A DNA stretch of 36,879 nucleotides from the NCBI GenBank assembly GCA_020725175.1, contig DYFM01000002.1:1-36879 (forward strand), written 5' to 3'. The notes below the pieces were generated by a model. It ran no database searches, was not told the origin of the DNA, and worked only from the letters and a program-made list of their open reading frames with translations. The DNA is from Candidatus Paceibacter sp. GTDB taxonomy: Bacteria; Patescibacteriota; Patescibacteriia; Magasanikbacterales; UBA922. This document shows, one piece after another, positions 10,626 to 12,118 of the stretch (position 1 is its first letter; each line of letters starts with the position of its first letter). The position numbers and the translations under genes were made by a program.

Positions 10626-10882
10626 TGTATAGATTATTCTATACATCTGTGGATAAGTCTGGGGAAAAGAGCGTTAAAATGTGGAAAAGATTGAATAAAA
10701 AATGTTTCACCGCCTTTTTCCTCCGCCATTCCACCAGTTATCCAAACGTTATCCACGCATAATTCATCAATTTGTATAGATTATTCTATACATTGTGGAT
10801 AAGTATGTGAATAAAAGCTTAAAACTGTGGATAAGTTTAGGATTATGGCTGTGAATAATATTTGTATACAGTATTCTATACA
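10626..10882. other. DnaA-box cluster with three 20-bp palindromes (origin-like)
   Basis: Seven DnaA-box-like 9-mers lie within 211 bp. TGTGGATAA occurs at 10648, 10794 and 10826, TGTGAATAA at 10806 and 10850, and TTATCCAAA and TTATCCACG at 10738 and 10749. The palindrome TGTATAGA-TTAT-TCTATACA is perfect at 10626-10645 and 10773-10792, and has one mismatch at 10863-10882. The region is AT-rich and has no gene. It could be a second DnaA-binding locus, part of a replication origin, or a DnaA-controlled regulatory region for the ncRNA downstream. The palindromes would be a binding site for an unknown dimeric protein. Confidence 0.65.
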
Positions 10883-10955: not shown

Positions 10956-10984
10956 TTGACAACAGAGCAAAAATGTGCTATTAT
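10956..10984 (+). promoter_or_regulatory. Strong sigma70-type promoter of the structured RNA
   Basis: TTGACA at 10956-10961 and TATTAT at 10979-10984 are separated by exactly 17 bp. This is one of the best promoter matches in the window. Transcription should begin near 10991. Confidence 0.8.
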
Positions 10985-10990
10985 GTATGT

Positions 10991-11422
10991 ATAAGCAATG
11001 AGTTTCGATCTTTCACAACGGTCCTCGGAAAACATGCCATAATGTTTTCGAAGGACCATCTCTTTACTGCTCACTTTTGCCAGACTTACCCTTGTGTATT
11101 CTCCGCTCACTGATGTATCAGTTGAGTACCTACGGATCGAGTACACATCAAGAAGTCACACAAACACAAACACGCAAATCTAGAGGCAAGTTTGGCAGCT
11201 CGGTGCGCTTCAGTTACGCATACCGTGGTCACCCCCGTGTATGTTGAGGCCCAACACCTTTCGAGCTGGTAAGGAGATATACCGTCCCCGGGACGGACTG
11301 TCGTATCAGACGATTTTGCTCTTCAAGACTCTTGAATGGCAAAACCGTCTGGTGACGATGCATCCTAGGGACTATAAGGCGATCAGCCACACTATTACCT
11401 AGGGCCTCGATCGCCTTTTTTT
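10991..11422 (+). ncRNA. Structured non-coding RNA of unknown family, about 430 nt
   Basis: A consensus promoter and an intrinsic terminator frame about 430 nt with no credible reading frame but many helices. These are 11020-11025/11052-11057 with an inner GAAAACA/TGTTTTC stem, a long-range 11078-11087/11188-11197 helix, 11196-11202/11262-11268 (CAGCTCG/CGAGCTG), CCGTCC/GGACGG at 11282-11296, and 11307-11319/11339-11351 (one mismatch) enclosing TTCAAG/CTTGAA. Two CCTAGG copies at 11364 and 11398 interleave with the terminator stem, which allows a pseudoknot or a switch. Size and expression signals suit a housekeeping RNA. However, the conserved RNase P (GAGGAAAGTCC) and tmRNA (GGTTCGAATCC-type 3' end) sequences are missing, and it is too long for a typical 6S or small SRP RNA. 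Confidence 0.7.
11378..11422 (+). terminator. Intrinsic terminator of the structured RNA
   Basis: GGCGATC at 11378-11384 pairs with GATCGCC at 11409-11415 and is followed at once by seven Ts. The 24-nt loop contains one of the two CCTAGG copies. Confidence 0.8.
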
Positions 11423-11591: not shown

Positions 11592-11620
11592 TTGCTTTTT
11601 TTTATTTTTTCTCATATAAT
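11592..11620 (+). promoter_or_regulatory. Promoter of the DksA/TraR-like gene
   Basis: TTGCTT at 11592-11597 and TATAAT at 11615-11620 have 17-bp spacing. Transcription would start near 11627, giving a leader of about 90 nt. Confidence 0.6.
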
Positions 11621-11719: not shown

Positions 11720-12118
11720 ATGACGAAAGTGCAACCAACCACCACCTACTCGGCTCAGTTTCTTGATGAGATTCGTATCCTTCTTGAAGCAGAAAAGGTT
11801 CGTCTTGAGGGTGAACTTTCAAAGTTTGCCACCAAAGTACCCGGAACCACCGCCAACTACGAGGCAGATTTCCCAGAGTTTGGGGATGAAGAAGATGATA
11901 ATGTGCACGAGATGGAAAAGTATGTCGTTGACAAATCTCTTGAAGAAACCCTTGAGAGCTCTCTTCGGGATGTAATCAAATCTCTCAAGCGACTCGACGA
12001 AGGAGCGTACGGTATTTGCAAATACTGTGACCAACCAATAGACGAAAAGCGGCTTTTGGCAAGACCAACTTCAAGCTCTTGTGTATCTTGTAAAAAAACC
12101 TTGACCCAAGAGGCGTAA
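11720..12118 (+). CDS. DksA/TraR-family C4 zinc-finger protein
   Basis: The 132-residue protein has an N-terminal helical region (about 10-90, coiled-coil-like and rich in Glu/Lys) and a C-terminal zinc finger with CKYC and CVSC pairs, separated by QPIDEKRLLARPTSS. This is the DksA/TraR fold, whose members bind the RNA polymerase secondary channel and adjust transcription during stress or growth change. An acidic segment (EFGDEEDDN) sits where DksA-type proteins carry their coiled-coil tip region. It has its own promoter with a TATAAT box at 11615. The next gene, lspA, begins 90 bp later, and a terminator-like hairpin lies inside the lspA start. Confidence 0.88.
   Translation: MTKVQPTTTYSAQFLDEIRILLEAEKVRLEGELSKFATKVPGTTANYEADFPEFGDEEDDNVHEMEKYVVDKSLEETLESSLRDVIKSLKRLDEGAYGICKYCDQPIDEKRLLARPTSSSCVSCKKTLTQEA

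Follow-up and report, generated by a model that had tools for sequence, protein, structure and literature searches.

Few large structured RNAs are conserved over a deep lineage of bacteria, and those that are usually have a central role in the cell (RNase P, tmRNA, SRP and 6S RNA); the question raised by positions 10956-11422 of the DNA analysed here is whether they encode an RNA of this rank and, if so, of what kind. The window (the whole stretch of 36,879 nucleotides) corresponds to bases 1-36879 of a 118-kb contig, C29, in a 1.24-Mb, 98% complete genome (G000) of Ca. Magasanikbacteria (Patescibacteria, class ABY1), where the locus adjoins replication-origin genes and lies 9 kb from dnaA. 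Judged from its predicted promoter, stable fold and intrinsic terminator, the reading of 10956-11422 as a stand-alone RNA gene holds, with the gene extending on the forward strand from 10991 (start inferred from the promoter) to 11422 (end inferred from the terminator). All features described below are on this strand, except the upstream palindromes, to which no strand is assigned.

The putative promoter (10956-10984) is of the sigma-70 type and consists of a −35 element TTGACA (10956-10961) and a −10 element TATTAT (10979-10984) preceded by TG, which are separated by a 17-bp spacer and match the consensus at 11 of 12 positions. Promoter-like sites occur in this stretch of the window at chance number (4 found versus 4.4 expected), so the evidential weight of this one lies in its conservation: the 17-bp spacing was kept in 68/68 mechanically accepted relatives and TTGACA in 61 of the 68, the latter an upper bound. 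This set was picked by promoter and terminator score, which biases its promoter figures upward; DnaA-box counts in the same set are unbiased because boxes were counted outside the selected features. At the 3′ end (11378-11422), sequence, fold and a terminator scan indicate an intrinsic terminator with the stem GGCGATC (11378-11384)/GATCGCC (11409-11415) followed by seven Ts, of which the scan returned the inner part only, owing to the long loop. No credible ORF was found in 10956-11422, the longest overlapping one in any frame being 76 aa on the opposite strand, and the minimum free energy of the RNA (−156.7 kcal/mol) was far below that of dinucleotide shuffles (−112.7 ± 4.9; z = −9.06, 0/100). 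A preliminary description of the locus had claimed a near-consensus promoter with 17-bp spacing, an intrinsic terminator and a structured transcript without a credible ORF, and each of these claims was borne out, the structural one also by the strong covariation in relatives described below.

The same description recognised no known family in this RNA and saw in it none of the RNase P, tmRNA and SRP core motifs, which agrees with the covariance-model searches. Rfam 15 (4227 families, large ornate RNAs included) gave no gathering-level match in the window or in 20 relatives, and at E ≤ 10 the window yielded sub-threshold noise only. RNase P RNA (RF00010) and tmRNA (RF00023) were found elsewhere in the same genome (G000:C6:9351-9746 and G000:C23:22571-22964, respectively), and the locus itself matched neither, for tmRNA by covariance model or ARAGORN. 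Genes for 6S and SRP RNA are unaccounted for: the 6S model (RF00013) had no match at the locus or in the 20 relatives and scored above cut-off in 0/12 genomes, and the SRP models (RF00169 and RF01854) likewise had none at the locus, in the 20 relatives or in the 12 genomes (G000 and 11 relatives). These two vacancies are the main support for regarding the RNA as a highly diverged version of a known housekeeping RNA (SRP, 6S, RNase P or tmRNA) missed by the Rfam models, an explanation we hold to be very unlikely because the RNase P and tmRNA genes sit elsewhere, SRP itself seems absent, and the branched, A-rich-loop architecture of the RNA is unlike 6S RNA, which is a single long rod with a central bubble. 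A diverged SRP RNA, considered after the empty SRP searches, was rejected, as the S-domain motif GGUCAG/AGCAG was not seen on reading the RNA and the Ffh/FtsY signatures (DTAGR, the SRP P-loop and TKxDxxxxGG) were absent from the open frames in 1.23 of 1.24 Mb; this was a motif search only, without a profile, and control motifs of translation GTPases and DnaK were found in it. A 6S-like role remains possible, with no data that test it.

Two further observations touch on these searches. This lineage may lack the SRP system, given SRP RNA in 0/12 genomes and no Ffh/FtsY motif in the window genome. A second structured RNA candidate of 221 nt (z = −5.55) occurs at positions 7975-8195 of L278 (G000:C5) with a TTGACA-type promoter just upstream; it has no Rfam match and contains a candidate SRP-like motif.

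Relatives of the RNA are difficult to recognise by sequence. In relatives, DNA similarity searches for the most part picked up no more than the promoter (1-39) or the end with the terminator; as the sequence evolves fast, such searches find little, and synteny with dksA was therefore needed. In three cases the matched terminator end was followed by a dksA/traR-type gene. The window has the same arrangement, with a gene for a dksA/traR-type zinc-finger protein (11720-12118; PF01258) as the usual 3′ neighbour outside the RNA gene. Relatives were gathered as the stretches upstream of the dksA-type gene in about 90 genomes and 80 named contigs, the latter mainly from Candidatus Magasanikbacteria with some from Uhrbacteria and Falkowbacteria, which by established taxonomy make up class ABY1 of the Patescibacteria. 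A recurring order emerged from these stretches, namely DnaA boxes, TTGACA-17-TATnnT, 300-470 nt, a strong terminator and dksA. One contig labelled Candidatus Firestonebacteria (L188, MFGS01000137.1), possibly mis-binned, carries a Magasanikbacteria-like dksA together with the RNA (58 bits with model R1).

Covariance models of the core (helices P2, P3 and P4 around an A-rich loop) were built from 15 (R1) and 36 (R2) sequences. In 325 kb of collected stretches, R2 matched about 75 of 100 at E ≤ 0.01, once per locus and on the expected strand, with no off-target match at this threshold. Across whole genomes at the same threshold it matched 101/286 genomes of class ABY1 and 39/380 phylum genomes; the model E-values are rough, and the search was lossy, with only 7-10 first-look candidates per genome scored under strict filters, so that many true copies will have gone undetected. 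In most of the class genomes inspected, matches obtained blind to dksA were followed, some hundreds of bases downstream and in the same orientation, by a dksA-type gene. Matches outside ABY1 were weak (27-40 bits), and six of those in other classes kept the RNA-dksA order (L258, L260, L264, L265, L266 and L270, with lspA next in L265). Matches at L263, L267 and L271 were rejected as false since they fell inside coding sequence. We read this distribution, as part of the explanation favoured below, as that of an RNA family that probably spans class ABY1 as a whole and is thinner in the other Patescibacteria classes; universality within the class is not shown (101/286 with a lossy search), and homology at phylum level is weakly supported, resting on low model scores, synteny and shared motifs.

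For the core of the RNA, a structure-aware alignment and a plain MAFFT core alignment agreed on P2, P3 and P4. P2 encloses P3, which bears the A-rich single strand, and P4; in the full alignment P1 lies 5′ of this core, and H, P5/Px and the terminator lie 3′ of it. P1 (11020-11057) is a hairpin found in the fold and the structure-aware alignment. P2 is a long-range stem in which the strand CUUUUUACUGC pairs with GCGGUAGAAGG (5′ strand 11059-11071, 3′ strand 11263-11277 from the alignments). P3 (11079-11196), in which 11079-11093 pairs with 11182-11196, changes on both sides in 11 of 12 pairs and encloses a variable hairpin and an A/C-rich single strand (11156-11179), which reads AAAACAAAAACAAAA in relatives and whose A positions are nearly invariant. 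The P4 domain (11202-11258), closed by GGUG/CACC, is supported by the alignments and by covariation. Both sides change in 11 of the 13 P2 pairs across 55 sequences, and an invariant ACU in its 5′ strand forms a C-G pair (55/55) and a U·G wobble (54/55) with GGU of the 3′ strand; such non-varying pairs are, as expected, what a contact site would show.

The covariation check proposed in the preliminary description was run, and it revealed very strong covariation in the core helices of the relatives. In the plain MAFFT alignment of 15 sequences, 35/44 pairs change on both sides, 89.6% of cells can pair, and the covariation was unmatched by any shuffle (0/500); a one-base shift of the partners almost halved the paired cells and lowered the covariation score threefold. 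With 55 sequences, 40/44 pairs change on both sides and the covariation score was 0.468, versus 0.181 when shuffled and 0.05-0.10 with partners slid by 1-3 columns. These 55 sequences were fitted to the model, so their alignment leans towards the structure.

The 3′ domain contains helices that cannot all form together. The hairpin H (CCGUCC/GGACGG, 11282-11296) overlaps Px (11284-11372), a helix of GUCCC (11284-11288) with GGGAC (11368-11372) at the base of the long P5 hairpin, and H both forms and overlaps Px in 22/26 sequences of the Magasanikbacteria family. For Px, a strand paired better with its own partner than with one swapped in from another species, both within the family and among the remaining class members (0/5000 permutations in either set). 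A further helix, Pk (11364-11403), which also overlaps Px, would join a CCTAGG strand (11364-11369) to the copy in the terminator loop (11398-11403). These two copies had led to the initial suggestion of a pseudoknot or switch, which is partly supported: both copies are present and Pk covaries in the Magasanikbacteria family (2/5000 permutations), and it was rejected as a class-wide feature, since 3600/5000 permutations did as well outside that family. The predicted exchange in Magasanikbacteria may reflect a folding pathway, a means of controlling termination or a switch in the completed RNA.

In Magasanikbacteria, mutually exclusive helices thus engage the terminator loop, and in most loci some 50-300 nt separate the terminator from dksA. 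Both features would suit a cis-acting leader (riboswitch or attenuator) of the dksA-type gene, in which exchange between H, Px and Pk opens or closes the terminator. Such a leader should hold an obligate position upstream in the transcription unit of dksA, and this was not met. A promoter was predicted between the terminator and the dksA start in 61/66 loci versus 12.5 expected (predictions, not mapped), in the window as TTGCTT-17-TATAAT (11592-11620), so that dksA would have a promoter of its own past the terminator. In addition, the RNA precedes lspA-comM without dksA in one class member (L249, genome G086), dksA is not adjacent in four further loci (L252, L254, L257 and L268), and in the last three of these, from other classes, a small membrane protein and pheS follow the RNA (PheS confirmed by Pfam in L254 and L268). 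These changes of neighbour indicate that the RNA can travel independently of dksA, and together with the second promoter they argue against the RNA being a simple dksA leader. As the Pk pairing is also not conserved beyond the Magasanikbacteria family, we consider the leader explanation improbable.

The preliminary description placed the RNA directly downstream of a DnaA-box cluster, and three exact boxes, TGTGGATAA, were confirmed at 10648, 10794 and 10826 (10648-10834), the last two 32 bp apart. The genome holds 47 boxes in total, and in 1.23 of its 1.24 Mb no other three exact boxes fall within 300 bp of one another. An exact box was present within 450 bp upstream of the −35 element in 64/68 ABY1 loci (109 boxes) versus 0.3 expected, at a median of 131 bp, while control stretches 500-950 bp upstream contained one in 0/62. 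In two genomes checked, one from another class (G525) and one from ABY1 (G109), no exact box was found near the RNA. Pairs of boxes about 32 bp apart, equivalent to three helical turns, were observed upstream of the RNA in 24/68 loci (0.0 expected).

Interspersed with the boxes are three copies of the palindrome TGTATA-N8-TATACA (10626-10645, 10773-10792 and 10863-10882), which also occurs upstream of 45/68 relatives (0.0 expected in dinucleotide shuffles) and is probably the operator of an unidentified factor. The genome contains 16 such sites at ≤1 mismatch versus 2 for the reversed control pattern, among them G000:C28:14122 and 14200 and C29:37872, 47253 and 62895, and the open frames neighbouring the palindromes shared no common theme that would define a regulon. 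The palindrome on C28 is flanked by an excisionase-like HTH gene and a sigma-factor-like gene (both identified by eye alone), and in three loci (L032, L037 and L085) a TGTATA...TATACA palindrome, identical or similar, is part of the RNA gene and forms the P3 apical hairpin.

As the sole dense cluster of exact DnaA boxes in the genome, conserved in relatives and 9 kb from dnaA here (19 kb in G232 and 15 kb in G099), the site could instead be a replication-control locus near oriC, at which DnaA is titrated or reactivated, with the RNA as a regulator of replication or a by-product. The cluster is not oriC itself, a possibility that was rejected because the cumulative GC-skew minimum (22616) falls at dnaA-dnaN, placing oriC at about 22.6 kb. 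In G251 and G091, the box is kept beside the RNA with no dnaA within about 80-100 kb on either side, which indicates that the boxes go with the RNA promoter and not with oriC, and the RNA structure is conserved more widely than the boxes. A replication-control locus is therefore unlikely, though marginally less so than a dksA leader.

The explanation we favour, and think probable without being assured of it, is that the locus encodes a new, independently transcribed, trans-acting housekeeping RNA of 300-470 nt, outside Rfam and with a DnaA-linked promoter. Its transcription, action in trans, control by DnaA and molecular job are all inferred, with no transcript data and no known partner protein; trans action and DnaA control in particular rest only on anatomy and conservation. 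In this proposal, transcription would be strong, and DnaA, bound some 90-215 bp ahead of the −35 element, would adjust it and so couple the level of the RNA to the replication cycle. The RNA would act in trans as the scaffold of a ribonucleoprotein, with P2-P4 holding the A-rich strand out for contact with a partner. In Magasanikbacteria, the 3′ end may alternate among H, Px and Pk, the pairing with the terminator loop; this could be a folding pathway that governs release of the transcript, or the completed RNA could act as a two-state switch. More speculatively, and with little confidence, this could be a phylum-wide, uncatalogued Patescibacteria RNA by which DnaA sets the level of a global ribonucleoprotein regulator, for example a regulator of RNA polymerase acting with the neighbouring DksA-type protein, in cells seemingly without recognisable 6S RNA or an SRP system.

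Patescibacteria form a huge, mostly uncultured phylum with stripped-down genomes, and an RNA family of this kind would be a core component of them that is invisible to protein-based surveys. The tight association with DnaA boxes ties the initiation of replication to a non-coding RNA in a concrete way that can be tested, and the covariance model can be applied to metatranscriptomes at once. A literature search of open papers, which left subscription journals mostly, and preprints almost entirely, outside its reach, turned up no account of an RNA like this one.

Among known systems, GOLLD, ROOL and OLE are larger than the Patescibacteria RNA, and we know of no association of these or of the raiA motif RNA with a DnaA-box promoter. 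All four are elaborately folded bacterial ncRNAs first known from sequence comparison (PMC12286853, PMC11706538), and the likeness to the present RNA lies in this highly structured character; they differ in that none has an Rfam match to it and in being known from other bacterial groups. With 6S RNA it shares a strong promoter, a probable housekeeping character and a possible link to RNA polymerase through the dksA-type neighbour, but it has no match to the 6S covariance model (RF00013) and possesses a three-stem core with an A-rich loop in place of a rod. In size it is near the large form of bacterial SRP RNA, which was not otherwise detected in these genomes, but it lacks the S-domain motif and its genome has no Ffh/FtsY signatures that could be seen. 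In E. coli, datA and DARS are sites of DnaA titration and reactivation, and they resemble this locus in having a cluster of DnaA boxes away from oriC; here, by contrast, the boxes accompany the promoter of a conserved RNA gene, even where dnaA is distant.
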